DNA from: Pseudomonadota bacterium
GTDB taxonomy: Bacteria; Pseudomonadota; Gammaproteobacteria; Steroidobacterales; JBCBZW01
Direction of reading: 5' to 3'
DNA: 64,000 nucleotides
NCBI GenBank assembly: GCA_039193195.1
Contig: JBCCWS010000003.1
Coordinates: 62,001-126,000 of the forward strand
The notes below the pieces were generated by a model. It did not search any database. It was given only the letters and a program-made list of their open reading frames with translations, and was not told the DNA's origin. The translations under genes and the position numbers were made by a program. Shown here in pieces: positions 1,672 to 64,000 of this stretch. The first letter of the stretch is position 1; each line of letters opens with the position of its first letter.

Positions 1672-1722
1672 CTTTCCAACACTCCTAAAGGACTCCGATC
1701 GATGCCTCGATCACATCTCGGA

Positions 1723-2394: not shown

Positions 2395-2433
2395 CGTGTC
2401 GCTCGAGGACTAGCGCTATAAGGAGAGCACGTC

Positions 2434-2463: not shown

Positions 2464-2496
2464 ATCACATCGTCGCGATTCACCCTAAGGAGATGA

Positions 2497-3219: not shown

Positions 3220-3229
3220 CGGGGGTCGC

Positions 3230-6023: not shown

Positions 6024-6349
6024 TCCAGTCCCCGATTCCGAGTCGCCGGGCGGCACTTGGGGCGGCCAACGCCAGCCACCTTTCGCGCCGAAAATCGCTT
6101 GCTTTTTAGCCGCCTGGCTCGTTCGAGAACCCTCTGACGCGCTGCGGAGGGGATTGTGCACGGGCGCCCCGGGCGGCTCAAGTCCGATCGCCGAGATTCG
6201 CGGCGAGGCCACGCTGTTCGCAGCCGCGCGACATGAAATTCCGGTTGCCCTGGGCGCAAGACAGGTTACGTCGCACCGCAAACCCCGGTGGTCCAAGTTG
6301 TGAACCACCTCAACCGGCGCCAGCCCAAGGCCTGGCTACACTCGAGGTC
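6024..6349. other. Divergent intergenic region between the HAD and fimT genes
   Basis: About 325 bp separate the leftward HAD-shc operon from the rightward pilin genes. It must hold both promoters. I see no clear -35/-10 pair, RNA gene or repeat; both strands have open frames here but with non-protein-like composition. Confidence 0.5.
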
Positions 6350-6904: not shown

Positions 6905-6932
6905 CCTCGCCTACGCCACTTCTGGAGTTCAC

Positions 6933-7352
6933 GTGAGCATTACTCGAAAGCACAACGCTGGCTTCAGCCTGACTGAGCTGATGATCGTGGTGTCCATCAT
7001 CACCATCCTCGGCGCCTTCGCCCTGCCAAGCTTCACCAATCAGATCCGGCGCAGCAACCGCACCGACGCCACCGCTGCGCTGATGCGCGTCGCCGCGGAG
7101 CAGGAGAAGTACTACCTGCAGAACAACGGCTATGGCGACATGTCGGAGCTGAACGATCCGGTGACGGACGCGGGCTACTACACGCTCACCATTCCGACCG
7201 CCAACGCCACCACCTTTACGGTTACCGCGACGCCCACTGAGGGTGGGCCTCAGGTAAACGATGCGATCTGCTCGAGCTTCTCAATCAACGCGGCAGGCCA
7301 GCGAACCGCCGTCGATACGACGGGCGGTGACACCTCCGCCGCCTGCTGGTAA
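6933..7352 (+). CDS. pilE: Type IV pilin, PilE-like minor pilin
   Basis: The protein has 139 residues from GTG 6933, preceded by GGAG at 6-nt spacing. The leader VSITRKHNAG/FSLTELMIVVSIITIL has the PilD cleavage site, Glu +5 and a core helix. The sequence then continues ALPSFTNQIRRSNRTDATAAL, RVAAEQEKYYLQNNGYG and DAGYYTLTIP, the typical PilE-type minor pilin pattern (ATAAL-AQEryy-ngtY). Two cysteines near the C-terminus (AICSSF and the terminal SAACW) could form the D-region disulfide. It forms a two-gene unit with fimT and probably acts as an accessory pilin rather than the major subunit. Confidence 0.9.
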   Translation: MSITRKHNAGFSLTELMIVVSIITILGAFALPSFTNQIRRSNRTDATAALMRVAAEQEKYYLQNNGYGDMSELNDPVTDAGYYTLTIPTANATTFTVTATPTEGGPQVNDAICSSFSINAAGQRTAVDTTGGDTSAACW

Positions 7353-7448
7353 GGCGTTCGCGCCCGTGTCTTCGACGGGAGACAGCTTCACCGCCTACAA
7401 GTGAGCGCCGTACCGTCAGCGCTCAGGCCCACTTGGAATCGACGCGTG

Positions 7449-10400
7449 ATGATCCCCACCGATCGGGTGGCGAAGGCCGCCGCCCTCACCCTTGCCAGCG
7501 CCAGCTTGCTGACCGCGTGCACCGTCAACACGGATCAGGTTGCTGGCGATGCTTCCGCGCCAGCACCGCGGATCAGTGTTGCAGAGACCCAGGTGACCGA
7601 GGGCGATGATGGCGCCGTCGATGCGATCTTCACGATCACCCTAGACAGGGCGTCGCAGAGCACCGTTACGGTCGACTACACCACCGTGGACGGCACGGCG
7701 GCCGCCGGCATCGACTTCTTCGGGCGCACGGGCATGCTCACCTTCGATGCGGGCCAAACCACGGCCACCGTGTCGGTGCCTGTGGTCGGCGATGAGATCC
7801 GCGAGGGCGATGAGAACTTCCGACTTGAACTAAGTAATCCAGTAGGTGCGGAGTTTCAGCTGGCTGGCGCTATCGCCACCATCGTCGACAACGACCTCTT
7901 CCCCCAGCTGCAGGTCGCCGATGCCAGCGCCAACGAAGCGAGCGCTGGGGTCACCCCCCTGAGCTTCCTGGTCACGCTGACGGCAACGCCCGACGCGCCG
8001 GTGATGGTGGACTACTCCGTGGATCCGGGGACAGCGACGCCGGACGAGGACTACCTCGCCGTGATGGGCACCCTCACCTTCTCAGTCGGCGTGACCAGCC
8101 AGACGGTGGTCGTCGACCTCCTCGATGACGACATCGAGGAGGGCCCGGAGTCGATCGTCCTGAGCTTCAGCAACGTGGTCAACGGCGTGCTGCCCGAGGG
8201 TCCTGCGACGGGCACGATCGTAGACGACGACGACGAAAGCGACGGGGTCGGACTGACGACCCGCCCGCCGAACGATGTCTGCCTCGCGGGCGCGACGCCG
8301 ACCACGACCACCACCGTGGGCCTTACGGACGCATTCCCGTCCCTGCCCGACTTCGCCGCCCCGATCCAGCTGTTGCGCCCCCCAGCCGTCGAACCCCTCG
8401 ATGACGCAATGCCACCGCCGCCGGCAACGGTCTGGCACATGGTCGAGCGCGGCGGACTGATTTACCGCTACGACAGCGCAGCCCTGCCCGACCCCGAGGC
8501 CTTGCCGGATGATCCGCCGGCAGGCCTTAGCGTGTTTGTTGACCTGACCGCACGGGTCGACGCGAGCGGAGAAGGAGGCCTGCTCAGCGCGGCCTTCCAT
8601 CCAGACTTCGCCCTCAATGGCTTCGTCTTCGTCTCCTACACCCGAACTAGCAACGGCGCAGGTCCGCTGACGTCTGTGATCTCTCGCTTCGTGAGCGAAG
8701 ACGGTGGTCTTACGCTGGACCCTGCTAGTGAGCTCGAGCTGCTCACTGTGGAGCAACCCTTCACCAACCACAACGGCGGGCGCATCGGCTTCGGCGACGA
8801 CGGCTTGTTCTACATCGCCATGGGCGACGGTGGCGGCGCTGGCGACCCCAAAGACAATGCCCAGGACACGACGAACCTGCTTGGCGCCATGCTCCGCGTC
8901 GACGTGAACTTCGGCACGCCCTACACGATCCCGGAGACTAACCCCTTCGCCGACAACCCCACCTGCGCCACCGGCGGCGTCGGCGCGGCGCCCTGCCCGG
9001 AGATCTGGGCCTGGGGTCTACGCAACCCCTGGCAGTGGCAGTTCGACGGCGCCACCGGCCGCCTGTGGGTCGGCGATGTAGGCCAGGATGCGGTGGAGGA
9101 GATCGACGTGGTGGTCGGCGGCGGCAACTACGGCTGGCGCATCCGCGAGGGCTCGCGCTGCTTCGACCCCGCGATCGGCTGCACGGATATCGACCTGGTC
9201 AGACCCACGGCCGAATACGCCCACGATGAGGGCCTCGGCAGCTCCATCACCGGCGGCTACGTCTATCGCGGCAGCGCCATCCCCACGCTGGTCGGTCGCT
9301 ACGTCTTTGCGGACTTCGTCAGCGGTCGCGTCCTCGCCCTGAGCCTAGCCGACGATGGCGGCTACACGGTAGAACGCCTGCTCGACACCACCCGCTCCCC
9401 GGCCTCCTTCTTCGAGGACGCCGAAGGCGAGCTGTACCTCACGGACATCGCCTCCGGGCGCTTCTTGCGCATGACGCCCAACGCGGCGAGCGAGAACAAC
9501 CCCTGGCCCGACGCCTTGGCGGACACGGGCTGCATCGACCTCAACGACTTCGAAGCCTTCGCCAACGCCGTGATCCCCTATGCCACCCTGGTCGACAGCT
9601 TCACCGAAGAGGCCGTGCACAGCAAAGGCTTCGCCCTGCCGAACAACACCTTCGTGGACGCGGGCCTCGACCCGGAGACGGGCAACGGGGACTGGACCCT
9701 GCCGGACACCTACGTCCTGCTGCAAACCCTCGAACTGAACGGCTCTCCCGTGGAGACGCGCGTGCTCGCCAGGCACACGGACGGTCGCCTGCGTGGCTAT
9801 ACCTACGCCTGGGATCCACTCACCCGCACGGCCACCCGCGTGCGCGGCGGTGCGATTATTAACCTAGGAGAATCAGAAGGCTTGGCAGGGCCCCTGTGGT
9901 ACTACCCGAGCGAGAACGAGTGCCTCGACTGCCACCTCGGCCCTGCCGGCGGCAGCCTGGGCCTCGAGTCACCCCAGCTCAACAGCCTCTTCACCTACGG
10001 CCCACGGCGCGCCAACCAGCTGACCACGCTCGAGGGCATCGACCTGTTCACGGAACCCCTGCCCGCACCCGCCACGGACCTGCCCGCCTTCCCGCGCCTG
10101 GACGATATGGAGGAGACCCTGACCCGTCGCGCGCGCGCCTACCTGCACGTGAACTGCTCCAGCTGCCACCGCCCTGGCGGCAGCGCCCCGGGCGCGCTGG
10201 ACCTACGCTTCGAGCAAACCGTGGACATGATCGGTGCCTGCGATGTGGCACCGGTGCGTGGCGACCTCGCAGTGGAAGACCCACGTTTGATCGCCTCTGG
10301 CGATGCGGCGCGGTCGATCTTGCGCCAGCGCATGGCCGAGCGCGGACCGCGCCAGATGCCGCCCTCCGGCCAGCGCATCGCCGACGCGGCGGGCATCGCC

Positions 10401-10841
10401 CTCGTGGACGCCTGGATCAGCGCCATGGGCCCCGATTGCCTGGTTCCCGACGAGGACGACGTGGGCATCATCATCGTGCCGCCGCCGGAGGACGAACCAC
10501 CGCCGGACGATGACGCGCTCAGCATCGCCGCCTTCCAAGCCACCGTCTGGCCGCTGGTGCGCGGCGAGGCGATGTGTTCGAACTGCCACTTCGTTGGCGG
10601 GCCGGCCTCCCCAGCCTTCGCCGACCCGGTGGTGGAGACAGCCCACGCCCAGACCCTCGACAACATGCTGGTCAACCTTGAGGTGGCCGCGGCCTCACGC
10701 CTGGTCGAGCGCCTCGCCGTGGACAACCATCAGTGCTGGAGCGCGGACTGCAACGCGGACGCGACTCAGATGCAGGCGGCGATTCAGGCCTGGGCCGACC
10801 TGCTAGCCGATCCGCCGCCGGACCCTGATCCGGACGAGTGA
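7449..10841 (+). CDS. Multidomain lipoprotein: Calx-beta x2, GSDH-type quinoprotein propeller, cytochrome c modules
   Basis: About 1130 residues from ATG 7449. A lipoprotein signal ends in LLTAC. Two Calx-beta domains follow (roughly residues 40-265; TVDYTTVDGTAAAGIDF, GDEIREGDENFRLEL). A glucose/sorbosone dehydrogenase-type beta-propeller spans about 325-680 (LLSAAFHPDFALNGFVFVSYT, NHNGGRIGFGDDG, WGLRNPWQWQFD, GDVGQDAVEEID). The C-terminal ~330 residues carry three c-heme sites: CLDCH (~825), CSSCH (~903) and CSNCH (~1043), with a region like the HNE_0200/SO2930 diheme family between. It is probably a surface or periplasmic PQQ-type dehydrogenase that passes electrons to its own hemes. The frame opens at GTG 7401, but the signal peptide starts at 7449. 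PQQ binding is inferred only. Confidence 0.9.
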   Translation: MIPTDRVAKAAALTLASASLLTACTVNTDQVAGDASAPAPRISVAETQVTEGDDGAVDAIFTITLDRASQSTVTVDYTTVDGTAAAGIDFFGRTGMLTFDAGQTTATVSVPVVGDEIREGDENFRLELSNPVGAEFQLAGAIATIVDNDLFPQLQVADASANEASAGVTPLSFLVTLTATPDAPVMVDYSVDPGTATPDEDYLAVMGTLTFSVGVTSQTVVVDLLDDDIEEGPESIVLSFSNVVNGVLPEGPATGTIVDDDDESDGVGLTTRPPNDVCLAGATPTTTTTVGLTDAFPSLPDFAAPIQLLRPPAVEPLDDAMPPPPATVWHMVERGGLIYRYDSAALPDPEALPDDPPAGLSVFVDLTARVDASGEGGLLSAAFHPDFALNGFVFVSYTRTSNGAGPLTSVISRFVSEDGGLTLDPASELELLTVEQPFTNHNGGRIGFGDDGLFYIAMGDGGGAGDPKDNAQDTTNLLGAMLRVDVNFGTPYTIPETNPFADNPTCATGGVGAAPCPEIWAWGLRNPWQWQFDGATGRLWVGDVGQDAVEEIDVVVGGGNYGWRIREGSRCFDPAIGCTDIDLVRPTAEYAHDEGLGSSITGGYVYRGSAIPTLVGRYVFADFVSGRVLALSLADDGGYTVERLLDTTRSPASFFEDAEGELYLTDIASGRFLRMTPNAASENNPWPDALADTGCIDLNDFEAFANAVIPYATLVDSFTEEAVHSKGFALPNNTFVDAGLDPETGNGDWTLPDTYVLLQTLELNGSPVETRVLARHTDGRLRGYTYAWDPLTRTATRVRGGAIINLGESEGLAGPLWYYPSENECLDCHLGPAGGSLGLESPQLNSLFTYGPRRANQLTTLEGIDLFTEPLPAPATDLPAFPRLDDMEETLTRRARAYLHVNCSSCHRPGGSAPGALDLRFEQTVDMIGACDVAPVRGDLAVEDPRLIASGDAARSILRQRMAERGPRQMPPSGQRIADAAGIALVDAWISAMGPDCLVPDEDDVGIIIVPPPEDEPPPDDDALSIAAFQATVWPLVRGEAMCSNCHFVGGPASPAFADPVVETAHAQTLDNMLVNLEVAAASRLVERLAVDNHQCWSADCNADATQMQAAIQAWADLLADPPPDPDPDE

Positions 10842-10855
10842 TCCCAAGAAGCACC

Positions 10856-10893
10856 GCGACGGCAAACGATTCCTTACGGATCTTTGCTGTCGC
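10856..10893 (+). terminator. Strong hairpin after the quinoprotein gene
   Basis: GCGACGGCAAA (10856-10866) pairs with TTTGCTGTCGC (10883-10893) over 11 positions with one G-U pair, and the inner bases GATtCC/GGATC extend the stem around a TTAC loop. It starts 15 bp after the stop at 10841. There is no U-run, so it may be a transcript-end stabiliser or a Rho-assisted stop rather than a classical terminator. Confidence 0.5.
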
Positions 10894-11006
10894 CGTCACA
10901 TCCGTCCCTTAAGCTCGAGCGAAGTCACCGACTTAGCGAATCCATGTTCGACAGCGTGCCTAGACGGGCGGCAGAAGCGAACCATGAGAGCGATCAGGGG
11001 ATACCT

Positions 11007-12263
11007 ATGGGGCGGAGCAAAGTGGGATCAGCTGCACTCAAGGCGGGGTTGGCCGTCGGGGTGTTGGTGGTTGGGTTTCTCCTCTCCAAGGCGATGATCG
11101 CCGGCCGTCCGGAGCCGCAGCGCTTCACCCCACCGGCCTCGGTGGTGAGCGTCGACGCCACCCGCCTGGTCCCCACCGAGTACGCCATCGAGCTGCTCAG
11201 TGACGGCACGGTCTCGCCGCGCACCGCCACCACTCTGATCCCGGAGGTGGCTGGACGCATTGAAGAGGTCGCCGAGCAGTTTCGTGCCGGCGCCTTCTTC
11301 GAAGCAGGCGACGTACTCGTGCGCATTGACGAGCGCAACTTCACGCTCGCCGTCACCTCCGCGGAGGCCGCCGTGGCCCAGGCCCAGGCTGCCCTCGAGT
11401 TGGAGCTCGCCGAGGCAGAGGTGGTGGCAGGCGATTGGAAGGCCCTCGGCCGCGAGGCTCCTCCCCTGGGTCTGCGCGAACCGCAGATCGCCGCAGCCCG
11501 CGCTGACCTCGCATCAGCGCGGGCCCAGCTCGAACGCGCCCGCGTCGACCTGGAGCGCACGGTGCTACGCGCGCCCTACGCAGGTCGCGTCCTGTCGATC
11601 AGCGCGGACATCGGCCAGTTTGTCGCCGTCGGTACGACCCTCGCTGAGCTCTACTCCGTAGAGCGCGCCGAGGTACGCCTACCCCTATCTAGTCGCCAGC
11701 TGGCCTACGTCGACCTTCCCGGAAGCTATCGCGACGACGACGAAGGCTCCGCCCCCTCACCGAAGGTCGAACTGACAGGAAAATTAGGTGACCGTACGTA
11801 CGGCTGGCCCGCCCGCGTGGTACGCAGTGACGGGGCAATCGACAGTGCCAGCCGGCGCCTGTTCGTCATCGCCGAGGTGATCGACCCCTATGCGCGCCTC
11901 GCGAACGAAGGCCGCCCTCCCCTGCGCGTCGGTCAGTTCGTCGAGGCGCGCATTGAAGGACGCACCCTCAGCGGGGTCTTCGTCCTGCCACGCCAGGCGC
12001 TGCGCGGCGCGAACGAGCTGCTCACCATCACCAGCGAGAGCACCTTGGAGCGTCGACAGGTGCACGTCGCCTGGCTCACGGACGACCAGGTGGTGATCGA
12101 CGAAGGCCTGAGCACCGGCGACGTGGTGGTCACCACGCCGCTTGCCGTGGTCGCCGACGGCACGCTGGTCAGGGCCACCGTGGACGGCGTCGCGCCCGCG
12201 CGGCGCGGCGGCGGCGCCGCGGCTGGGACCGCCGTCGACGCGGCAGCGAGCGCCCTTCGATGA
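11007..12263 (+). CDS. RND efflux periplasmic adaptor (HlyD/AcrA family)
   Basis: 418 residues from ATG 11007, which follows AGGGG at 7-nt spacing. A single N-terminal transmembrane anchor (LAVGVLVVGFLLSKAMIA) is followed by a biotinyl-lipoyl half (GRIEEVAEQFRAGAFFEAGDVLVRID), an alanine-rich alpha-hairpin, the second lipoyl half (VLRAPYAGRVLSISADIGQFVAVGTTLAELYS), a beta-barrel and a membrane-proximal domain. This is the membrane-fusion partner that joins an RND permease to the outer-membrane channel. Its stop overlaps the permease ATG (ATGA), indicating translational coupling. The frame is open upstream to 10884 but lacks a ribosome site there. No TolC gene is adjacent. Confidence 0.93.
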   Translation: MGRSKVGSAALKAGLAVGVLVVGFLLSKAMIAGRPEPQRFTPPASVVSVDATRLVPTEYAIELLSDGTVSPRTATTLIPEVAGRIEEVAEQFRAGAFFEAGDVLVRIDERNFTLAVTSAEAAVAQAQAALELELAEAEVVAGDWKALGREAPPLGLREPQIAAARADLASARAQLERARVDLERTVLRAPYAGRVLSISADIGQFVAVGTTLAELYSVERAEVRLPLSSRQLAYVDLPGSYRDDDEGSAPSPKVELTGKLGDRTYGWPARVVRSDGAIDSASRRLFVIAEVIDPYARLANEGRPPLRVGQFVEARIEGRTLSGVFVLPRQALRGANELLTITSESTLERRQVHVAWLTDDQVVIDEGLSTGDVVVTTPLAVVADGTLVRATVDGVAPARRGGGAAAGTAVDAAASALR

Positions 12264-15200
12264 AGGGACTGATCGACTGGTTCGCGCGCAACGACGTCAG
12301 CGCGAACCTCCTCATGTTCACGATTCTGGCCGCGGGCTTCATGACCGTGCGCAGCTTGCCCCTAGAGGTTTTCCCCGCCTTCGAGATCGACGTGGTAAAC
12401 GTGCGCGTGCCGTTCCCCGGCGCCACGCCGGTGGAGGCGGAACAGGGCATCACGATCAAAATCGAGGAGGCGATCTACGAGATCGAAGGCATTAAGCGCC
12501 TGCGCTCGACGGCGGGCGAAGGCTTGGGATCGGTCACGGCGGAGATCGACCGCGGCTACGACGCGCAGGATGTGCTCGATGAGATCAAGGTGCAGGTCGA
12601 TGCGATCAGCACCTTTCCCGTCGACGCCGAGAAGCCGGTCATCTACATCCCGAAGACCGGCTTCGAGGTGGTCGACGTGGTGCTGCACGGCGAACTGCCC
12701 GAAGCGGAGTTGCGCCAGCTCGCCGAGCGCGTGCGCGACGACGTCGCCAACCTGCCGGGCATCACGCAGGTCTCCCTCTCTGGCGTGCGCGACTACGAAA
12801 TCTCGATCGAGGTCTCCGACACCACCCTGCGCGAGTATGGCCTGACCTTCGAACAAGTGGCGCAGGCGATCCGTCGCTCCTCCCTGGATCTGGCCGCCGG
12901 CCAGATCCGCAGCCCGAGCGGTGACATCGTGCTGCGTACGCAGGGCCAGGCCTACGAGCGCCTCGACTTCGAGGGCATTACCGTGCGCGGCGCCGACGGC
13001 ACCCGCATCCCGCTCTCGGAGATTGCCGTGGTCCGCGATGGATTTAGCGAAGAACCTTTGGCCTCGGCCTTCGACGGCGAAGGTGCCGCCGTGATCGAAG
13101 TCGGCCGCGTTGGGGAGCAAAGCGCGATCGAGATCGCGACCACCGTCAAGGCCTACGTGGAGCGCGCGGCCAGCACCCTGCCCCCTGGCGTGGCGATCAC
13201 CGTCTGGGATGATGACTCGGAGATCGTGAAGGCGCGCCTGGGCACGCTCACCAAGAGCGCCATTCAGGGCGGCCTGCTGATCCTGATCCTGCTCACCCTG
13301 TTCCTGCGCTGGTCCGTCGCCCTCTGGGTGGTGGTAGGGATACCCGTGTGCTTCATGGGCGGCATCGCCCTGATGCCAGTCTTCGGCGTTACGATCAATA
13401 TACTTAGCCTATTCGCCTTCATTCTGGTGCTCGGCATCGTGGTGGACGATGCGATCGTTACCGGCGAGAACATCTACACCCACTTGCGTGCCGGCGAACC
13501 GCCGGAGCAGGCCGCGATCCGTGGCACGCAGGAGATCGCGCTCCCCGTCACCTTCGGCGTGCTGACCACCGTCGCTGCGTTTACGCCGCTGTTTTTCATC
13601 GAGGGCGCGCGCGGCAAGCTGTTCTCCCAGTTTCCCCTGATCGTGATTCCCGTGCTGCTGTTCTCGCTGGTGGAATCAAAGCTGATCCTGCCCGCGCATC
13701 TCAAGCACGCGCGCTCGCATGCGATGCGCGATGACGACGTAGGCCTGCTCACGCGGGTCCAGCGCCGCATCGCCGACTCCCTGGAGTGGTTCGTGCGCAG
13801 CGTGTACCAACCCTTCCTCGATCTGGCGATGCGTTACCGCTACGTGGTGCTCGCGAGCTTCGTCGCCCTCGGCATGCTGACCTTCGCCACCGTGGCGAGC
13901 GGCAACCTGCGCTTCGTCTTCTTCCCGCGCGTGCCGAGCGAGACCGCCCGCGCCAGCCTGACCATGCCCACGGGCACCTCCTTCGAGGTGACCCAAGTAG
14001 CCGCCCGGCGCATGGGCGAGGCGGCCGATGCGCTGCGCGAGGAGTTCGTCGATCCCGCCACGGGCGAGAGCGTGATCACACACATCTACGAGATCGTCGG
14101 CGCCACGGGCGGCGGCGGCTTCGGCTCTACGGAGCCGAGCGGCTCGGCGAGCAACGTGGCCCGCGTGCTGGTGGAGCTGACACCCGCGGAGCAGCGCCCC
14201 GATGGCCCGACCACGCGCGATGTGGTCGCGAGCTGGCGCAAGCGTATCGGCACCATACCGGGGGCCGAGGACCTGAACCTACGCGCTGAGTTCGCCCGCG
14301 GTGGCGCGCCCATCGACGTGCAGCTCACGGGCCAGGACTTCGATGAGCTGCGCGTCGTGGCCGCGCAGGTGCGCGAGCGTCTCGCCACCTACCCCGGCGT
14401 CTTCGATGTGACCGACGACTTCGAGGCCGGCAAGTCGGAGATCGAACTCGCCCTCAAGCCGCAGGTCGAATCCCTCGGCCTTACCTTGGAGGATCTCGCC
14501 TCGCAAGTGCGCCAGGCCTTCTTCGGTCTCGAAGTGCAGCGCGTGCAGCGCGGGCGTGAGGAGGTGCGCGTGTACCTGCGCTACCCGCGTGTGGACCGCG
14601 AGTCAATCGCCACCCTCGAGAGCATGACGATTCGCACGGCGAGCGGGACCGAGGTGCCTTTCGAAGAGGTAGCCCTGGCGAGCAAGGGGCGCGGTTTTGC
14701 CTCCATCACGCGCGTCGATCGCACGCGCAAGGTCAGCGTGACCGCCGACGTTGACAAGGAGAGCGCCGACGTCGAGGGCATCAAGACCGATCTCAACACC
14801 TGGCTTGCTGGCGAGCTCACCACCTTACCCAGCGTGCGCTTTTCTCTCGAGGGGGAAGCCGCCGAACAACGCGAGTCCTTCGGCAGCCTGTTCACGGGTA
14901 TCCCCTTCGTGCTGTTCGGGATCTACGTGCTGCTGGCCGTGCCGTTTCGCTCCTACCTACAACCGCTCATCGTCATGCTAGTGATTCCATTCGGTGTGAT
15001 CGGCGCGATGCTCGGGCACATGATCATGGGCCTGCCGCTGAGCTTTGTGAGCGCCCTCGGTATGCTGGCCCTCTCGGGCGTGGTAGTGAACGACAGCCTC
15101 GTACTGGTCGATTACGTGAACCAGCGCCGCCGCGAAGGAGCCAGCGTGCGAGAGGCCGTCTACGCGGCGGGCGGAGCACGCTTCCGCCCCGTGTTGCTGA

Positions 15201-53230: not shown

Positions 53231-55219
53231 TTATTCGTGCGGCACCCAGTGGTTCACCGAGGCGGTTGTCGCGGTGTCGACGCCCGTACCTCCCTCCCAA
53301 GGCAGGGACTGACTCCAGGTATAGCCTTGGCTCCAGGTATAGCCTTGCGACCACGTGTAGCCTTGACTCCAGGTGTAGCCCTGCGACCACGTGTAGCCTT
53401 GACTCCAGGTGTAGCCCTGCGACCATGTGTAGCCTTGACTCCAGGTGTAGCCCTGCGACCACGTGTAGCCGTCGCTGTCGATGGCCTGACCGGGCTCAGA
53501 GGCCCCCATGTCCATAATGTAGTAGTTGCCGTCCTCGTCGAGGTTGGCCGGCCCACCGAAGTGGCGGATGCCCTTGAGGTCATCGTCGATGTCCAGGCCC
53601 ACGTTCGCGCAGTCGGTCGCGGAGCTCGCGATGGCGCCGGCGGCGTTGATGAAGCCTGAGCCTTGCTGGAACACGCTGTAGGCAAGCTGCCCCTTCCCGT
53701 CGAGGGCGGGACGGGCACTGGCCATGAGCTTGCACTTGACCTCGTCGGGTGACAGGGAAGGATCGGCCTGCAGCATCAGCGCCACCGCACCGCTCACCAC
53801 GGCAGCCGCCTGCGACGTGCCGGACATGGTGAAGTGCTTCTGGTTGATGGCCATCGAGTCGGGATGGTTGCTGGCGATGAAACCCTTGTACGGCATCCAC
53901 CCCATGATATGGCCGCCGGGCGCTAGCACGTCGGGCTTCACAAAGCCCTCGTGGGTGGGACCCGTGGCCGAGAATGAGGCGAGGCGATCATCCTCGGGGT
54001 TGTTCGAGGTGAAGTTATCTGTCGCTGCCCCCACAGTGATCACGTAGGGCACGTTACCCGGAACGCCTACGGTCATCGCATCCGGCCCCGAGTTACCCGC
54101 CGAGGCGACCACGACGATCCCTGCTTGCCAGGCCGCCATCACGGCTTGATTCAGGGGGTCGTCCCAGTAGTGCGACTGAGGCGTTGCGCTAAAGGACAGG
54201 TTGAGCACGCGAATGTTGAACTCGTCTTTGTGGGCCACCACCCAGTCGACGGCCTCGATGACGTCCTGGTAGCTGCCACCGCCATTCTCGCCGAAGGCCC
54301 GGACGGAGATCAGGTCCACGCCGGGGGCGACGCCTTCGTAGCGGCCGTTGCTCGCCTGAAAGCTGCTCGAGATGATGGAGGAGACGTGGGTGCCGTGGCC
54401 GTTAGCGTCATCGACACCGTTGGTCCACTCGTGCACGCGCTTCTCGTAGATCGGCGACTGGGTCGTGTCCACCTGCACCACCAGGCGATCCCACATATCC
54501 ACCTGGCGCTCCTCCCAGAAGCCGGTGTCGATAACGGCCACGCCAACGTCTTCCCCGGTGTAGCCGAGCGTGTGCAAGCCCATCGCCCCGATGGCGCGCG
54601 GGTAGGAGGTATCGGCCGTGGAGAAGAAGCGCTCCATGCCCGCGAAAAACAGCTCGAGGGTCGACAAACCGGTCTCCATGAGCGGGGCCGTCGGGCTGCT
54701 GTCGGCCGCAGTGCTCGCCGCACCCAGCGCCATGTCGGTCGGTGCCGCCTCGACAGCTACAGCCCCCGCCGAGCCCGATGTGGGCGCGACAACACCCGTC
54801 GCATCGGCTGTGGTGTCCGTGGGGGCCTTTCCGAAGAGCGAGGCCAGGCTGGCGCTCCAGCCGCTGCGACGTGACGAGCGACGACGGCTACTCACCTCCG
54901 CGGCAGCATCGGCGTAGACGCGTACATCTGCGTTGGCGGCGATCAGCGCGTGCTGGTCTGCGTTCAGGGTGGCGGCCACCGCATTGATGACGCCGAGCGT
55001 CGCGGTGATTTCCCCACCCACCGTATGCACCAGTTCGCGCGCCATGGCCACACTACCGGCCTGCACGATGTAAGACCGCGCGCAAACCGTCTTCTGGGCA
55101 CTCACAGGGGGCTCGATCGTCGGGGCGGTGGCCGCGTTGCCGTTCGGGATTGCGCCCAGGGCGCCGCCGGCCAACATGGCCGTCGCCACTGCGCTCGTGA
55201 TCAATGCTTGCTTGCTCAT
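53231..55219 (-). CDS. Subtilisin-like protease (S8) with C-terminal TWSQGY repeats
   Basis: 662 residues. A signal peptide (ALITSAVATAMLAGGALGA) is followed by a propeptide (to ~120), then a linker region. The triad is D231 (VAVIDTGFW), H275 (NGHGTHVSS) and S469 (MSGTSQAAA), with the oxyanion Asn in VVASAGNSGPD. Asp-His spacing (44) is near normal, in contrast to the LamG-split subtilase at 24942. The catalytic domain ends at about residue 520. After DMGASEPGQAIDSDG come nine YTWSQG hexapeptides (585-638) and a short tail (SLPWEGGTG). Secreted or surface-attached. It is monocistronic with a strong terminator. Confidence 0.94.
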   Translation of the reverse strand: MSKQALITSAVATAMLAGGALGAIPNGNAATAPTIEPPVSAQKTVCARSYIVQAGSVAMARELVHTVGGEITATLGVINAVAATLNADQHALIAANADVRVYADAAAEVSSRRRSSRRSGWSASLASLFGKAPTDTTADATGVVAPTSGSAGAVAVEAAPTDMALGAASTAADSSPTAPLMETGLSTLELFFAGMERFFSTADTSYPRAIGAMGLHTLGYTGEDVGVAVIDTGFWEERQVDMWDRLVVQVDTTQSPIYEKRVHEWTNGVDDANGHGTHVSSIISSSFQASNGRYEGVAPGVDLISVRAFGENGGGSYQDVIEAVDWVVAHKDEFNIRVLNLSFSATPQSHYWDDPLNQAVMAAWQAGIVVVASAGNSGPDAMTVGVPGNVPYVITVGAATDNFTSNNPEDDRLASFSATGPTHEGFVKPDVLAPGGHIMGWMPYKGFIASNHPDSMAINQKHFTMSGTSQAAAVVSGAVALMLQADPSLSPDEVKCKLMASARPALDGKGQLAYSVFQQGSGFINAAGAIASSATDCANVGLDIDDDLKGIRHFGGPANLDEDGNYYIMDMGASEPGQAIDSDGYTWSQGYTWSQGYTWSQGYTWSQGYTWSQGYTWSQGYTWSQGYTWSQGYTWSQSLPWEGGTGVDTATTASVNHWVPHE
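53306..53467 (-). repeat. Tandem 18-bp coding repeat, 9 units (YTWSQG), 36-bp higher order
   Basis: Nine consecutive 18-bp units encode Y-T-W-S-Q-[G/S]. Read along the gene, the serine codon goes TCG, AGT, TCG, AGT, TCG, AGT, TCG, AGC, AGT: alternating TCN/AGY until the last unit. The period at DNA level is therefore 36 bp, as in the array at 27330. Confidence 0.95.
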
Positions 55220-58288: not shown

Positions 58289-58845
58289 GCCCTCTCACCC
58301 GATCGCTCGCCGCCGTGGCGCTCGGCCTGCTCTTCGCGGCCGCCGCCAGCGCCCAGGACGGTCCGGGTAAGCCGATCAAGACCACCGTAGCCTACGAGCC
58401 GGTGATCGCACTGGCGCCCGAGTCGCGTGAGCTCACCGCCTGCGGGGTACAGATCACCGTGCTGCGCGACGACCAGCCGCTGATCACCACCTCACTCACC
58501 CAGCGACGGGAGGGAGAGCAGACGCGCGTGCTTTGGTGTTCGCTGCCTCGCGACCTTCTGCAGGCTACGCCCAGAACCGGCGTGGCTGCCCTGGAAGTGC
58601 GCAGCACCATGCGCCTAGAGACGCCGATCAACCTACCAGGCGCCTCACCGCGATCCAGGTGCACGGCTATCGAGGACAACTCATTGCTTTTTCAACGACT
58701 GTTCCTTTCCGGAGGCACTCTGCGCATCGCCTTGGAGGATCAACCTACGCTGTCGGTGACCTTGCAACGACCGCTGCCCGCGGCACTGAGATCGGCCTAC
58801 CTCAACTGCGCCGGTGATCTGTTCCGACCGGAGGACGCCGACTAA
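58285..58845 (+). CDS. Uncharacterised periplasmic protein
   Basis: 186 residues. A signal peptide (SLAAVALGLLFAAAASAQ) precedes a mature domain with four cysteines (TACGVQIT, VLWCSLP, SRCTAIE, LNCAGDL) that could form two disulfides. The sequence is beta-rich with repeated threonine/leucine strands. Its ATG overlaps the MarR stop (ATGA), so the two are co-translated, which is odd for a regulator and an exported protein. Its stop TAA overlaps the stop of the convergent TolC-like gene. I do not recognise a family. Confidence 0.72.
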   Translation: MSPLTRSLAAVALGLLFAAAASAQDGPGKPIKTTVAYEPVIALAPESRELTACGVQITVLRDDQPLITTSLTQRREGEQTRVLWCSLPRDLLQATPRTGVAALEVRSTMRLETPINLPGASPRSRCTAIEDNSLLFQRLFLSGGTLRIALEDQPTLSVTLQRPLPAALRSAYLNCAGDLFRPEDAD

Positions 58846-60386
58846 CGCGGCAGACCCGATCCGATTCCCAGGGCGCCGAAGTCTGCGGTGGCGGCGAAGT
58901 AGTCGGCGAGGGCTCGAAAGTAGGCAAGGCGCGCGTCGATCGCCGCGATACGCGCATCAGCCGCGCGCTCCTCGCGCAGGTTGACCACCAGTAGATCGCT
59001 CGCCCCTTCGCTGAACTTCACCCGCTCCGCTTCTTCCAGACGCTGGGCCGCAACCACCTGAACTGAGGTGATGCTGGCGAAGCGCACGTCCGCCACGATC
59101 TGCTCAGCGATGCCCAAGACTTGCGCGTCGAGCTGGTCGGCAAGCAGGCGACGCTCCTGCTGCAGCGACCGGATGTTGGCCCGCGCTTCGTCGATTTGCC
59201 CCTGTGCCTTGCGTCGACGCAGCGGGTACTTTACGTCGAGGCTCACGATCACATCGTTGCCCTGACGGGTCTCGCTACCGGCACCGAAGTCTCGCGCTAG
59301 CTTCACCTCCAGATCCAGCTGAGGCTTAAAGGCGTTCTCGCCGAGAGCCACGCGATTGCGCTCCTTCTCCACCTGCGCATCCACGGCGACCAGCGAAACC
59401 TGCTGCTCCATCGCGCGCAACAGATCGGTGGGAAGGTCATCGATGATCGCGCGACTCACGGCGGGGAACTCCAAGGGTAGACGGGCGCCGGGTGGTGCCG
59501 TCGTGTCGCCATCTGCATCGCGCAAGTACAGGCTCAGTTGTAAGCCCGCAACCCGGAAGTCTCGCTCTGCTTGCACCACCAGCGACTGGCGCTTGAACAG
59601 ATTCTGGGCGTTCTCGACGAGGAAGATCTCCGCCAGATCCCCTTCGGCAATGCGCCGCCGCAAAGCGTCGTCGCGGCGCACGGCAAGATCCAGCAACTCG
59701 CTGTACACCACCAGCTTCTGCCCCGTCGCCACCCAACGCCAGTAGGCGCGCAAGGCGCCGTGCTGCACCTGAACCTGCGTGCGCAGCAGCTCCAGATTCG
59801 TAAGGCGCAGATCCAAATCTGCCTGGCGCAGGGCGAAGCGGCGAGGGCCAAACTGGCGATCCTGGAGCAAGGCGAACACCACACCCACGTTGATCTCGCC
59901 CAAATCGTTGGTGACGTACTCGTCCTGGTAGATGGGGAAGTCCGCATCGCTGATACGGTAGCCGCCCGAGAATTCGATCGCGTCGCCGCGAATGGGCTTC
60001 ACCACCTTGGAGTCGACCGTAAGCCCCTCGTAGAAGCCACTGAACCAATTTAGGGACTTGGTCTGCCATTCACTGTCGTAGGCAACACCTTGAGCGGACA
60101 GCACCTTTGCACGCGCGGCGGCGGCTTTCTCCACCGCAGCGAGAATTTTCGGAAAGGACTCGATTGAAGAGCGCAGCACCTCATCGCTTTCGAGCGCAGG
60201 CGCCGTGCCTAAGTCCTCCGGACCGCCCATTGGACCGAGGGCCTGAAGAGCCTCGGGACGCGCGATCACATCCGCTAGGCCCAAGGCCTCCTGCGTATCC
60301 AACTGCTGAGCGGCTGTAGGCCCGGCGAGCAGGCAGACCAGGGACGGCAGCCAGCAGGTCAACGCAGGCCCCGTAGGAACGGTCAT
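58842..60386 (-). CDS. TolC-family outer-membrane efflux/secretion protein
   Basis: 514 residues. Signal peptide CWLPSLVCLLAGPTAAQQ. The body consists of long heptad-rich helices with TolC-type features: LGEINVGVVFALLQDRQFGPRRFALRQADLDLRLTNLELLRTQVQVQHGALRAYWRWVATGQKLVVYSELLDLAVRRDDALRRRIAEGDLAEIFLVENAQNL, and later KPQLDLEVKLARDF, NDVIVSLDVKYPLRRRKAQGQIDEARANIRSLQQERRLLADQL. It would form the trimeric outer-membrane channel for the HlyD and ABC proteins of the same operon. Its ATG overlaps the HlyD stop by 4 bp. The N-terminal ~90 residues are extra relative to TolC. Confidence 0.88.
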   Translation of the reverse strand: MTVPTGPALTCWLPSLVCLLAGPTAAQQLDTQEALGLADVIARPEALQALGPMGGPEDLGTAPALESDEVLRSSIESFPKILAAVEKAAAARAKVLSAQGVAYDSEWQTKSLNWFSGFYEGLTVDSKVVKPIRGDAIEFSGGYRISDADFPIYQDEYVTNDLGEINVGVVFALLQDRQFGPRRFALRQADLDLRLTNLELLRTQVQVQHGALRAYWRWVATGQKLVVYSELLDLAVRRDDALRRRIAEGDLAEIFLVENAQNLFKRQSLVVQAERDFRVAGLQLSLYLRDADGDTTAPPGARLPLEFPAVSRAIIDDLPTDLLRAMEQQVSLVAVDAQVEKERNRVALGENAFKPQLDLEVKLARDFGAGSETRQGNDVIVSLDVKYPLRRRKAQGQIDEARANIRSLQQERRLLADQLDAQVLGIAEQIVADVRFASITSVQVVAAQRLEEAERVKFSEGASDLLVVNLREERAADARIAAIDARLAYFRALADYFAATADFGALGIGSGLPR

Positions 60387-61486
60387 TCAGTCAGGGCCGC
60401 GATCGACGCGGGAGCCCCTCGCGCCTCCGGTGGCCGCGGCGGGAAGCTGTTGAGGCGACGCCAAAGCTCGTAGCCGAGCTTCACCTCACTCAGCAGGATC
60501 CAGCCCTGGGCTCGGGCCCCGAGCCGCAGGTAGCGCTCTTCGGGCCACGGATCGGAGGGATCCTCCGTAACCAACACGCGAAAGCGTCCGTTAGCCGAGG
60601 CCACCGGATCCACCGACGCGACAATGCCGCCAAAGGTACCGATCGCCACCTCGGGCCAGCCACCGAATTGCACCGAGGGCCATCCCTCGAAGCGAAGCCG
60701 TACCAGCCGTCCTGGCTCCACGATGGACGCATCGAGGCCGGAAATGTAGATCTCCGCCGCCAGACGCACACCGGACGGCACGAAGGAGGCGATGGTCTGC
60801 CCCGGTGATACGAGCGTGGCCTTGTCCCCCGCCTCGATGGTGACGATGGTGCCCGCGCGCGGCGCCAACACCGTGCGCAAAGACTGGCGGGACAGGTTGA
60901 TGTCGAGGCCAGCGAGCGAGGCACGATCAGACTCCGCCTTGGCGCTCGCCTCCCGATACTTGATCTCCGCCCCCTCGAAATCGACGCGGGCCACCAGCCC
61001 CTGATCGAACAAGCGCTTCTTGCGATCGTAATCGAGGCGGGCCGTCTCCGCCGCTAAGCGAGACGCTTGGTAGCGATTCTCCGCCGCGGCGCGCTCCTGC
61101 TCTAAGCGCGTGATGAACTGGGGATCGAGGTCGATGATCTCGACGATGGGATCTCCCGCCTCGACGACGCTGCCATCGCGCACGAACCAGCGGGAGATGC
61201 GCCCGCCGGCAAGCGCCGTGATGGCCTGGGAGCGATCCGCCGGGTCGAGGGCCGTAACGCTGCCACTGCCCACGGAGGTTTGCACCCACGGAGTGAAGCG
61301 CAAGAACAACACGAGCATGACGATAGCGGGCACGATTGACAGGGCCACCGCGAGCCCCACGCTGGGCAAGCGAATGCTCTGAAAGTTATCGAAGTACTGC
61401 CTATGCTCCGGATTAGCAAACATGCCGAAACGGAAGCGACTTGCCCCTCGACGCCCTCCGGATCGATGTGCGCTGATCTCAACCAT
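60383..61486 (-). CDS. HlyD-family membrane-fusion protein
   Basis: 367 residues from ATG 61486, directly after AAGGAGGGAAGCC, a strong ribosome site inside the upstream gene's end. One transmembrane helix (LPSVGLAVALSIVPAIVMLVLFLRF, ~45-70) follows a basic cytoplasmic N-terminus. Then come the lipoyl halves (GRISRWFVRDGSVVEAGDPIVEIID; RTVLAPRAGTIVTIEAGDKATLVSPGQTIASFVPS) around a coiled-coil hairpin, and a beta-barrel (YISGLDASIVEPGRLVRLRFEGWPSVQF). It bridges the ABC exporter and the TolC-like channel. It overlaps both neighbours (8 bp and 4 bp), so the three genes are tightly coupled. Confidence 0.9.
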   Translation of the reverse strand: MVEISAHRSGGRRGASRFRFGMFANPEHRQYFDNFQSIRLPSVGLAVALSIVPAIVMLVLFLRFTPWVQTSVGSGSVTALDPADRSQAITALAGGRISRWFVRDGSVVEAGDPIVEIIDLDPQFITRLEQERAAAENRYQASRLAAETARLDYDRKKRLFDQGLVARVDFEGAEIKYREASAKAESDRASLAGLDINLSRQSLRTVLAPRAGTIVTIEAGDKATLVSPGQTIASFVPSGVRLAAEIYISGLDASIVEPGRLVRLRFEGWPSVQFGGWPEVAIGTFGGIVASVDPVASANGRFRVLVTEDPSDPWPEERYLRLGARAQGWILLSEVKLGYELWRRLNSFPPRPPEARGAPASIAALTE

Positions 61487-63242
61487 GGCTTCCCTCCTTG
61501 GACTGCGCCAGGGCGCCGAGTTCACCGCCAGCGGTCACATCGGAGATCCCCTGCTCAATCTCGAAGCTGATTAGACCGGCGAGCGTCTCGAAGGTGCGTG
61601 GCTCGTCGCCAGTGATCTGCGGGTCGAGCAGGGCGTAGCGATCGAAGGCGTCCAAATCACGTCGGTTGGATAGGAAGATCAACGTGATACTAAGCTCCCG
61701 GGCGCGCGCCACGATGGCGCGACGGTGCGCGCACTGTAGGGCATCGAAGTGCGGTGCGATCACCAGCACCCTCGGTCGCATCAGCAGCGCTTGGACAACT
61801 TTCACGCGCATCGCTTCGGTGGAAACGAGGGGGTAGCCGTCAGCGGCAACGCGCAGTTCCAAACCCTCCACAAGCTCATCGAGGGCATCGCTCAAACCGA
61901 GCAGCTCGAGCTCCGCGTGCATGGCGACGCGGGTGACGTGTTCTCCGGCGATCGCAAGGTTGTCGGCGATCGACCCTTCGATCAGCGTGTCTTCGTTAAG
62001 GAAGTGCACCTGATCGCGCAGATCGTGCACATTGATATCGCGGATGTCGTGTCCGCCAACTTCGATGCGCCCCTTTTCAGGCTCCTGAAAGCGCTGCAGG
62101 AGGTTGCGCATCACGTGCACGGCACCCCCGCTCCGCGATGCCACCAAGGTGCAACTGCCTGCCCTAAACTCCCCATCCAAAAAGTACATCACCCCACGAT
62201 AGCTGTGGCTGACATCGACCAAACGAATGCTGGAGCCGAGCGTATCGATGCGCGGCTGGTCAGCCTCTTCCAAGGGCAGGGAGTAGAACTGGGAGAGCTT
62301 GTGCAGGCCGGCGCACAGGTCATAGTAGAGCTCGAGGTAGTAGTGAAACCCCGCCAGGCCGGCGAAGATCGCCCCAAGGATGAGTTCCGCCGCCACCAGC
62401 TGGCCGAGGGACAGCTCGCCGGCGATGACCAGAAAACCTCCAATGCCGAGCAGCGCAGCACTCGCGAGGGCGTAGAGCCCGAGCAAACCGATCACTTGGG
62501 TGAAGGTGTAGCGAAAATGACGCCGGTGCTGATCGAGATATTTGTTAGCGTGGTGCTCCGTTCGCTCGAGGGCGTAGTCAATCGTACGGCGTGCCTTAAA
62601 AAAATGATTGTTGCGGGTGATGGACTCCAGCCAGTCCGCCATATCCAACTTCGCTGAGGAGATGTCGACGGCGCTGGCGATGGCCTGGTTGTCTACCACT
62701 CGCCAAACGAAGTAGACAAGCAGCGCGTGGGCCAGGCTAAAGGCGAAGAAGACCGGATGGTAGAAGGACACCACCACGTAGCCTACTAGCGTCTGCAGCA
62801 CCAAGGTGGTGCCGCCGACGGCCATCGCGGGCAGGGTCTTCTGCAGGTTCATGATCTCGAAGAAGCGGTTCATCAAGTCGTCGCGGTTGCGATTGAGCAG
62901 CGCGTCGTGATCCGCGTAGACCAGGCGTAGGGCAATCTCCGAGGTCATGCGAGCAAAGAAGCGACGCTCGAACACCTCCATCGCCCACACCTGTAGAGCG
63001 ACCAGGAACCCCGACAAGGCGAGCACCGCGAATAAGCCCAGGGAGAGCACGACGACTGCCCGCACCACCGTGGTGTTCGCCACCGCCTCGATCAAGATCT
63101 GCACCGAGATAGGAACGGCCAAGGTGAACAGGCTAATGGCGACCGCGTAGATGGCGGCGACGTAAAAGAAACCCGCGTCGGGCGCTACGATCAGGCGCAG
63201 CAGCGGAAACAGCCTGAACGGCTGTTTAGAAGGATCTGCCAT
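61479..63242 (-). CDS. ABC exporter-like membrane protein with degenerate nucleotide-binding domain
   Basis: 587 residues in the half-transporter layout: six transmembrane helices (~20-310; FFYVAAIYAVAISLFTLAVPISVQILIEAV, VVVLSLGLFAVLALSGFLVAL and others), then an NBD (~340-560). The NBD has lost its key motifs. The Walker A position reads ASRSGGAVH (368-376), with A374 where the ATP-binding Lys should be. The signature position reads VSTEA instead of LSGGQ. Walker B ends VLVIAPHF, with A496-P497 for the Asp-Glu pair. The surrounding fold is intact (LVDVSHSYRGVMYFLDGEF, GRIEVGGHDIRDINVHDLRDQVHFLNEDTLIEGSIADNL), so this is drift of a real NBD, not a frameshift. First gene of the HlyD-TolC operon. 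Confidence 0.88.
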   Translation of the reverse strand: MADPSKQPFRLFPLLRLIVAPDAGFFYVAAIYAVAISLFTLAVPISVQILIEAVANTTVVRAVVVLSLGLFAVLALSGFLVALQVWAMEVFERRFFARMTSEIALRLVYADHDALLNRNRDDLMNRFFEIMNLQKTLPAMAVGGTTLVLQTLVGYVVVSFYHPVFFAFSLAHALLVYFVWRVVDNQAIASAVDISSAKLDMADWLESITRNNHFFKARRTIDYALERTEHHANKYLDQHRRHFRYTFTQVIGLLGLYALASAALLGIGGFLVIAGELSLGQLVAAELILGAIFAGLAGFHYYLELYYDLCAGLHKLSQFYSLPLEEADQPRIDTLGSSIRLVDVSHSYRGVMYFLDGEFRAGSCTLVASRSGGAVHVMRNLLQRFQEPEKGRIEVGGHDIRDINVHDLRDQVHFLNEDTLIEGSIADNLAIAGEHVTRVAMHAELELLGLSDALDELVEGLELRVAADGYPLVSTEAMRVKVVQALLMRPRVLVIAPHFDALQCAHRRAIVARARELSITLIFLSNRRDLDAFDRYALLDPQITGDEPRTFETLAGLISFEIEQGISDVTAGGELGALAQSKEGSHG

Positions 63243-63300
63243 GGACGGTCGAGTACGACGAGCGCGGGGGTGACGCCCAACAGCCGCAGAATAACGTAAG

Positions 63301-63326
63301 ACCGCACCGGGGTTGCCCAGTGCGGT
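63301..63326 (-). terminator. Hairpin after the AgmX/TonB-like gene
   Basis: ACCGCAC (63301-63307) and GTGCGGT (63320-63326) form a perfect 7-bp stem, extended by GGG/CCC across one mismatch with a GTTG loop. It lies 30 bp past the stop of the leftward gene and before the ABC gene start. On the minus strand it is followed by CTTACGTTATTC, only weakly T-rich. Confidence 0.5.
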
Positions 63327-63355
63327 GTTCGGGCCGCGCTAGATGCGGCAGATTT

Positions 63356-64000
63356 TTATGCGGGGAAGAACTCGATCGGCTTGGTCGTGGTGACTTCTGA
63401 AACGTCCTTCGCGCCAAAGTCGAACAGGCGCACGCGGCGCACGAGCTTGGCTTCGAGTTCCGGTGAGTTCAGCTCACTCGACACCACCTCACACGCGACC
63501 ACCTGACCGGAGGGCGCGATCGTTAGGCGCAACACCAGCTTGCCCTGCAAACCAGGATTCTGACGCAAAGCACGTCGGTAGAGGGCGTAGATGGCTGCCT
63601 TGTTTCGATCGAACACCATCTCGATCTCTTCCCGACTGCGGGTCACGGCCACCGCTCCTGTAGCCTGCGCAGCAGCCCGCGCCACCTGGGCGACAGCGAC
63701 GTCACTCTCCACCGTGGTGGTCTGGCGACCGGTAAGCTGCGTGCCTCCGGTGTTGCGACTCAGGCCAGCAGTGTTAATCCCGCCACTCGCCGTGCCAGCC
63801 CCGGCGGTCACCAGCGAGCGCTCGCTGCGATCCGCAGCAGCTACCGAATCCGATAGGGCCTGAGGCTTGGCCGCCACAGTCACCGCCGAGTGCTGGCGAA
63901 GGTCTGCTAGCTGGTCGGCGAAGGCCATGACGCCCGTACGCGAGGCCTTCTCCCGTGCCTCGGCAACGCGTTCCTGAGGCTTCACTTCAGGCGGCGGCGG
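63356..64000 (-). CDS. AgmX/PglI C-terminal (TonB-like) domain protein, 5' truncated
   Basis: The frame continues to the right edge (PPPPEVKPQERV), so the N-terminus, likely with a transmembrane segment and proline-rich linker, is outside the window. The visible 210 residues have a low-complexity middle (TAGAGTASGGINTAGLSRNTGGTQL) and a C-terminal domain of the AgmX/PglI type: EEIEMVFDRNKAAIYALYRRALRQNPGLQGKLVLRLTIAPSGQVVACEVVSSELNSPELEAKLVRRVRLFDFG. Such domains couple periplasmic or outer-membrane partners to an inner-membrane energiser. It lies 113 bp upstream of the ABC-like gene on the same strand; with that gene's NBD degenerate, a TonB-type energy link is an attractive idea. Confidence 0.85.
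   Translation of the reverse strand, partial: PPPPEVKPQERVAEAREKASRTGVMAFADQLADLRQHSAVTVAAKPQALSDSVAAADRSERSLVTAGAGTASGGINTAGLSRNTGGTQLTGRQTTTVESDVAVAQVARAAAQATGAVAVTRSREEIEMVFDRNKAAIYALYRRALRQNPGLQGKLVLRLTIAPSGQVVACEVVSSELNSPELEAKLVRRVRLFDFGAKDVSEVTTTKPIEFFPA

Follow-up and report, generated by a model that had tools for sequence, protein, structure and literature searches.

ATP hydrolysis is the defining trait of tripartite ABC exporters. What, then, could drive an exporter whose ABC subunit has lost the catalytic residues of its ATPase domain? Such a system is encoded near the right end of the window, a 64,000-nucleotide stretch of DNA from a gammaproteobacterium of the order Steroidobacterales. 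As the catalytic parts of the motor are lost while the pump genes are intact, the exporter probably relies on another power source or on a further partner.

Organization of the exporter locus

Three overlapping genes on the minus strand make up the locus, as the first-pass annotation had described. The gene for an ABC-exporter-like protein of 587 residues (positions 61479–63242), recognized from ORF calls and Pfam, is followed by those for a HlyD-family periplasmic adaptor (60383–61486 from its ATG, with the reading frame open to a GTG at 61525) and a TolC/OEP-family outer-membrane channel (58842–60386). The start of the HlyD gene shares 8 nt with the end of the ABC gene, as read from the sequence, and the TolC and HlyD genes overlap by 4 nt (ATGA). 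The adaptor and channel have Pfam matches above cut-off (HlyD_3 and OEP, respectively); the channel also has syntenic homologues in other loci, and the adaptor is 47–49% identical to five orthologues. We refer to these three genes as the triad. Upstream, on the same strand, lies the gene for an AgmX/TonB-like protein of 327–355 residues (63356–64000, extending past the window end), identified by Pfam/HMM and located near the end of a separate TPR-ExbB-ExbD-ExbD-AgmX cluster. The gap between this gene and the ABC gene (63243–63355, minus strand) contains a GC-rich hairpin of 11 bp without a strong T run (z −1.87), which the terminator scan did not list, and is a possible operon boundary.

Loss of the ATPase motifs

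The ABC protein consists of a HlyB-like transmembrane domain (TMD, about residues 25–318) and a degenerate nucleotide-binding domain (NBD, about residues 330–545). It scores 41.8 bits against Pfam ABC_membrane (cut-off 28) and 21.6 bits against ABC_tran, below the cut-off of 25; its predicted structure is poor, with a mean pLDDT of 50. All five NBD motifs are substituted. The Walker A site (residues 368–375) reads ASRSGGAV, the Walker B site (residues 492–497) reads VLVIAP, and the Q-loop and H-loop positions are occupied by E417 and N526, which bears out the earlier reading of a dead ATPase domain in an intact frame. The signature (residues 472–476) is likewise replaced, but not by VSTEA as first reported, since the alignment pairs LSGGQ with LVSTE, one residue off. 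The operon was also said to lack a second ABC gene, and none, including an intact paired half-transporter directly upstream, was found among ORFs of at least 130 residues in the next 14 kb upstream, beyond the window.

A conserved family with a degenerate NBD

The gene order ABC-HlyD-TolC is kept among relatives in Pseudomonadota and Bacteroidota, and the family is patchy across several bacterial groups. With the window's genome included, ABC orthologues were found in 11 of 396 genomes of the order and 11 of 369 of the class (both at E≤1e-60), and in 11 of 398 of the phylum (E≤1e-50). Matches to the ABC protein were also present in 22 plasmid records (E≤1e-20), of which eight were inspected, among them the copy on pNL2 of Novosphingobium aromaticivorans DSM 12444; a scan of viral contigs revealed no relative. 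Among the papers listed from a mostly open-access literature, judged by titles and the openings of abstracts, we found no description of an exporter family with a dead ATPase, and the main text of a fitness study of N. aromaticivorans (PMC10725011) mentions neither HlyD, TolC nor the RefSeq tags of the triad.

The motifs were compared across 39 family members, a set that leaves out the truncated L022/L045, L037 and L038 and counts duplicate loci once (L014–L017, L019–L021, L046–L073 and L114–L117 were not recounted). The P-loop (GxxxxGK[ST]) is missing in 33 members and present in six; LSGG is kept in three and the Walker B Asp-Glu in one. No member combines Walker A, LSGG and the Walker B Asp-Glu, compared to 7 of 12 ordinary exporters (P-loop in 11, LSGG in 9 and Asp-Glu in 10). 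Judged by these counts, the shared loss is more than chance (P-loop missing in 33/39, the three motifs together in 0/39), and the state of the window protein is no one-off decay. The P-loop state switches at least three times on a tree of the TMD. This tree places L082 and L083 beside Bacteroidota; a quick HlyD tree from untrimmed reading frames places them beside L081 and L092.

The six P-loop members raise the question of whether, at least in these proteins, the NBD still binds nucleotide or powers the cycle by a non-canonical route. L081 keeps the Walker B Asp-Glu in addition to the P-loop, but it has LSSSQ as its signature, and both the Q-loop and the H-loop region seem altered. As the window protein has none of the motifs, we regard residual or unusual nucleotide use as quite unlikely.

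Selection on the two domains

The two domains diverge in a manner opposite to that of ordinary exporters. In all 435 pairs of 30 dead members, the NBD is less alike than the TMD (mean identities of 36.5% and 53.6%, respectively). A first control comprised 71 ordinary pairs, and in 57 of them the NBD was the more similar domain. Of the 14 exceptions, 13 were near-identical pairs (TMD 91–99%), and the remaining one, L004/L031 (68.6% versus 63.1%), shows the pattern of the dead family. Since this control had no middle identity range, a second was made, in which 29 of 30 ordinary exporters passed the motif rule and alignments were pairwise, compared to profile-derived alignments for the dead family. 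The NBD was more alike in 403 of its 406 pairs (29 exporters), including all 109 pairs with TMD identity of 35–60%; the three exceptions fall among the nine pairs with TMD identity of 60% or more.

Where measurable, dN/dS is well below 1 in both TMD and NBD. Among nine close pairs, some sharing a sequence and two of them P-loop members, the NBD ratio is 0.09–0.27 in the seven with finite dS; dS reached saturation in both domains of L078/L090 and in the NBD of L034/L036, and the ratios are rough as dS is at least 0.7 in most other cases. The degenerate NBD remains under purifying selection. Motif loss by itself would be compatible with a decaying pseudogene or an assembly error, but the same state occurs with open frames in many independent genomes, synteny is conserved, and the low dN/dS leads us to reject this reading, which is scarcely credible.

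A possible partner subunit encoded elsewhere

The dead subunit could pair with an ATPase-competent ABC half-transporter, as in heterodimers with one degenerate site. An adjacent partner is rejected: in addition to the 14 kb upstream, we screened 37 loci with 2065 ORFs (L018 and L079 being additionally left out of these scans), and none of the ORFs encodes an ABC NBD whose motifs and spacing are normal, although a partner with deviating motifs would go undetected in such a screen. Two "ABC-like" ORFs, beside L088 and L089, fail the spacing test and resemble UvrA in size and motif spacing. The eight inspected plasmid regions likewise carry the triad without an annotated ABC exporter partner adjoining it.

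For a partner encoded elsewhere, the window's genome offers 11 further ABC_membrane matches, 10 of them above cut-off, and the TMD shows conservation in its presumed coupling regions. However, matching genomes had a single match each at the cut-off used, with few candidates scored per genome. Degenerate halves of known heterodimeric exporters still bind ATP, whereas 33 of the 39 members here lack even the P-loop. TmrAB, BmrCD and TM287/288, as described in PMC8277102, show that a degenerate NBD can occur in an ABC exporter; each has an ATPase-competent partner, and none with normal motifs adjoins the triad. A distant partner is a somewhat unlikely solution.

The TonB/ExbB/ExbD neighbors

A different power source had been suggested in the AgmX/TonB-like protein. 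The ExbB-ExbD-ExbD-TonB/AgmX set does lie directly upstream of the triad, on the same strand, in the window's genus, so that the anticipated co-occurrence holds there. It does not hold in 40 of the 41 other triad loci examined (several of which are short contigs), the exception, L045, being of the same genus. The cluster also recurs without the triad. Its TPR protein is found in 87 of 147 genomes of the order; around six such loci the whole TPR-ExbB-ExbD-ExbD-AgmX set is present in five and the sixth ends at a contig edge, and the triad is absent from all six within the sequence compared. In seven triad genomes of the same order, the TPR protein, among the matches listed, lies on contigs other than that of the triad. 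In the window itself, the hairpin divides the two gene sets. We therefore reject powering by TonB/ExbBD as a general mechanism, and consider it very improbable that the neighboring complex energizes this exporter.

Comparison with known systems

The family resembles the HlyB-HlyD-TolC type I systems in all three components. With a TMD-only profile, HlyB is the only match in the PDB at E≤1e-6 (8dck and 7sgr; E 2.6e-7), and TMD residues 26–320 align with HlyB residues 150–444. The family differs in the lost ATPase motifs, and the window protein scores only 99.5 bits against TIGR01846 (cut-off 725.55) and has no Pfam match to an N-terminal peptidase-like domain. We take the three proteins to form one self-contained tripartite exporter of type I architecture, probably a distinct family with a degenerate ATPase.

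SbmA/BacA (SLiPT) is the closest precedent for an ABC-exporter-type TMD that is not run by its own ATPase: according to PMC13316013, it has been converted to a proton-driven carrier, which relies on six glutamates and no longer has the coupling helices. SbmA is an importer that lacks an NBD, carries an additional TM0 domain and has its six glutamates arranged as a ladder. In contrast, the dead-ATPase family keeps an NBD remnant, the presumed coupling regions and the HlyD/TolC partners, and has one invariant transmembrane glutamate, E286. The ABC protein has no match to the SbmA/BacA Pfam family up to E 0.1. Any conversion would by analogy be independent of, and parallel to, that of SbmA/BacA.

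E286 and a possible proton-driven cycle

E286, in TM6, is present in 39 of 39 members and in none of the 10 ordinary exporters aligned at the site, and is the only invariant glutamate inside a predicted transmembrane helix of the family. R126, D/E129, K135 and K216 are highly conserved in the presumed coupling regions. Conserved acids also occur at positions 22, 129, 308 and 325, which, as we place the helices, lie beyond them or at their ends, so E286 is not the sole candidate protonatable residue.

Our leading explanation, a serious possibility that falls short of probable, is a type I-like exporter that has ceased to depend on its own ATPase and is driven by protons, with the dead NBD as a structural clamp. 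It builds on the conserved triad, the loss of catalytic motifs, the purifying selection on both domains and the absence of a normal-motif ABC neighbor. The TMD dimer would cycle by alternating access, driven by the proton motive force, and pass its substrate on to the conduit formed by HlyD and TolC; the NBD pair would have given up ATP hydrolysis and be retained as a structural or dimerizing clamp on the coupling helices. As the residue that takes up the proton, E286, present once per protomer, would be the best candidate. More tentatively, the family may have converted from a primary to a proton-driven transporter, keeping the dead NBD, HlyD and TolC, with E286 as the coupling residue. That SbmA has six glutamates and no coupling helices, whereas this family has one invariant transmembrane glutamate and highly conserved presumed coupling regions, counts against proton coupling. 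Moreover, P-loop-bearing members show the same invariance of E286, which may thus serve in substrate binding instead.

Alternatively, the TMD could be a non-energized or gated conduit without a power stroke, through which substrate follows its gradient into HlyD-TolC. Such a conduit would agree with the three classic motifs never occurring together, with no substitute motor being evident and with a single invariant acidic residue inside a predicted helix. However, the strong conservation of the TMD and its alternating-access fold type suggest a coupled cycle, and an open inner-membrane channel would presumably leak; we consider this arrangement unlikely.

Whichever applies, a conserved family with the full architecture minus the ATPase motifs suggests that the motor is dispensable or replaceable, and its members, from P-loop-bearing to fully dead, offer a natural series for studying the path by which a primary pump turns into something different.

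Substrate and annotation

No RTX-like ORF (three or more GGxGxD) was found among the 2065 ORFs of the 37 loci, several of which are short contigs, a further difference from type I systems, although some type I substrates are not RTX proteins. No conserved fourth gene was found among the recurrent neighbor clusters across loci, most of which we interpret as ORFs antisense to the triad genes, except for a LysR regulator (5 of 20 chosen upstream ORFs by Pfam). With LysR beside several triads and no RTX gene nearby, a small molecule or peptide appears a more likely substrate than an RTX protein. LysR genes are also annotated beside two plasmid copies of the triad. The label "ABC transporter ATP-binding protein", which is misleading for this family, is carried by six of the eight annotated plasmid copies.

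Organization of the triad

On the minus strand of the window, which lies in contig C3 of a 6.7-Mb genome, the genes for an ABC-exporter-like protein (61479–63242), an HlyD protein (60383–61486, from its ATG) and a TolC protein (58842–60386) overlap in that order. Their coordinates confirm the arrangement described in the first-pass annotation. The membrane domain (TMD) of the ABC protein scores above its Pfam cut-off (41.8 vs 28 bits), whereas the ATPase domain (NBD) scores below (21.6 vs 25 bits). The annotation had proposed a dead ATPase domain in an intact frame, and this holds: residues are replaced at all five motif sites (Walker A, Q-loop, signature, Walker B and H-loop), and the frame is open to the C-terminus.

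Each of the 37 loci compared carries an ABC and an HlyD homologue together. Clustering links a TolC homologue to 35 of them; L081 and L092 have, at the TolC position, an ORF that Pfam assigns to the OEP family (113 and 109 bits), which brings the count for this component to 37 of 37. Across the loci examined the gene order does not vary, and no conserved fourth gene was found beside the triad. An ATPase-competent ABC partner encoded remotely could supply the missing activity, a possibility raised from the start, but we consider it rather unlikely. The genes listed upstream beyond the window include no second ABC gene. Among 2065 ORFs of at least 100 residues in the 37 loci, several of them on short contigs, none resembles a further ABC ATPase whose motifs and spacing are normal, and none has three or more RTX motifs. 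LysR regulators account for 5 of 20 upstream ORFs scanned by Pfam and are annotated beside two plasmid copies, a weak hint that the triad may serve inducible efflux of small molecules. In L098, from a plasmid of Sphingobium baderi, genes for His-Xaa-Ser radical SAM maturases (hxsB and hxsC, 1431–4060) lie near the triad.

Distribution of the family

With the window protein as query, 196 genomes of the order yielded, apart from the query, eight strong relatives (E ≤1.2e-96), one of which (G008) is truncated by a contig end; the remaining 11 matches are ordinary exporters by their motifs (E 1e-20 to 1e-25). A profile built from eight members matched in 11 of 396 genomes of the order, 11 of 369 of the class and 11 of 398 of the phylum, the window's genome included each time. 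Plasmid relatives comprise 22 records, 15 of them from sphingomonad genera and 7 from Bacteroidota genera, and five contigs whose titles name Flavobacteriales or Chryseobacterium carry further relatives at 24–30% identity. The suggested homologue search recovered relatives across order, class, phylum and plasmids, and the dead-ATPase protein is a family member, not an accident. The distribution is patchy: on the TMD tree L084, a locus from the window's order, groups (support 99/96) with L097, a copy on a Sphingobium plasmid; this pairing suggests horizontal transfer. No published description of such a family was found among the open-access literature matches listed.

Loss of ATPase motifs under purifying selection

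The P-loop pattern GxxxxGK[ST] is kept in 6 of 39 members (L034, L035, L036, L081, L092 and L100), LSGG in three and the Walker B Asp-Glu in one; none has all three. The same patterns in 12 ordinary exporters gave 11, 9 and 10, with all three in seven. The Q-loop glutamine column holds Arg in 25 of the 39 members and Gln in 9 of the 12 ordinary exporters. Even the best-preserved members deviate from the canonical motifs: the Flavobacteriales members carry MED at the expected Walker B site, and L081 has LSSSQ at the signature. The P-loop state requires at least three changes on the TMD tree. The HlyD tree places the P-loop members L081 and L092 next to L082 and L083, which lack the P-loop, unlike the TMD tree, where the latter pair stands beside Bacteroidota. 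Provided that P-loops are not easily regained, either tree implies that the motif was lost several times.

In close pairs, dN/dS is 0.09–0.27 for the NBD (seven of nine with finite dS) and 0.01–0.19 for the TMD (eight of nine), indicating that the protein is maintained despite motif loss. Among 30 dead members the TMD is more alike than the NBD in all 435 pairs (means 53.6% vs 36.5%). A first control with ordinary exporters found the NBD more alike in 57 of 71 pairs; it lacked mid-range pairs, and its single pair at 68.6% went in the dead-family direction. A second control of 29 ordinary exporters, collected with an MsbA-like protein from the same genome, gave the NBD as more alike in 403 of 406 pairs; at TMD identities of 35–60%, the range containing 331 of the 435 dead pairs, this was so for 109 of 109. 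The signature is replaced by a new conserved stretch (G469 and P471 in 30 of 30, L472 in 29, E476 in 28). Unusual nucleotide use by this maintained but motif-poor NBD is, in our judgment, quite improbable.

The upstream ExbB/ExbD/TonB cluster

Upstream, on the same strand and extending beyond the window, lie genes for an AgmX/TonB-like protein, two ExbD-like proteins, an ExbB/TolQ-like protein and TPR proteins; this cluster occupies 63356–64000 of the window and 5357–14694 of the upstream stretch L009. The second ExbD-like gene, which has no NCBIfam match, is named from its position and sequence reading. The gap between the TonB-like and ABC genes contains an 11-bp hairpin, which the terminator scan did not list.

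The first-pass annotation had suggested the AgmX/TonB-like protein as power source and proposed checking for co-occurrence with the triad. This idea fared poorly: such neighbours occur in only 1 of 41 other triad loci examined, and the exception is from the same genus. Of 147 genomes of the order, 87 carry a TPR protein of this cluster. Five of six places inspected carry TPR, ExbB, ExbD, ExbD and AgmX in the same order, four of them with an ApbE-like gene nearby; the sixth is cut at ExbB by a contig end. None of the six has a triad gene nearby, with coverage of ~2–3 kb beyond AgmX. In the seven same-order triad genomes common to both searches, two of them with short triad contigs, all TPR matches among those listed are on non-triad contigs. 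The set represents a widespread proton-channel-linked envelope system, and by these observations it and the triad are separate units, adjacent in this genus. Cooperation within this genus alone is compatible with the data.

Conserved residues and possible energy source

A TMD-only profile matched HlyB alone among solved structures at E ≤1e-6, so its architecture is the type I secretion one. The predicted structure model was poor, probably because of a shallow alignment. R126 and K198 are conserved in 39 of 39 members, K216 and H162 in 38 and K135 in 37; position 129 is acidic in 39, 308 in 38 and 325 in 39. Glu286, in predicted TM6, is present in all 39; of the ordinary exporters, the 10 that have a residue in this column show V, L, I, M, T or N. 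Its counterpart in HlyB is the Asn of GQLIAFN, and in P-glycoprotein it aligns with the Phe-Phe of the GQVLTVFF segment, which we take to be cavity-lining.

Given an inactive motor, alternating access of the TMD would most likely be driven by other means. A proton-driven exporter is the favoured, though tentative, candidate, for which SbmA offers a precedent: it shows that an ABC-type TMD can run on protons (PMC13316013). However, SbmA has a six-glutamate ladder and lacks coupling helices (PMC13316013), whereas the triad family has one invariant glutamate in a predicted TM helix and conserved presumed coupling regions; these differences count against a close analogy. The protein could instead be a passive conduit, which would need no motor; we regard this as less probable than a remote partner.

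Elsewhere in the genome (L008/L012, L011 and L013), other ABC_membrane proteins have Walker A variants such as FIVGGNGSGKS, and their genes adjoin very long ORFs of up to ~2370 codons, possibly peptide synthetase clusters. Within the window, a minus-strand gene (53231–55219) encodes, by sequence reading, a subtilisin-like secreted protease with GYTWSQ repeated about nine times in its C-terminal part; the corresponding array (53310–53470) has DNA units of 18/36 bp.
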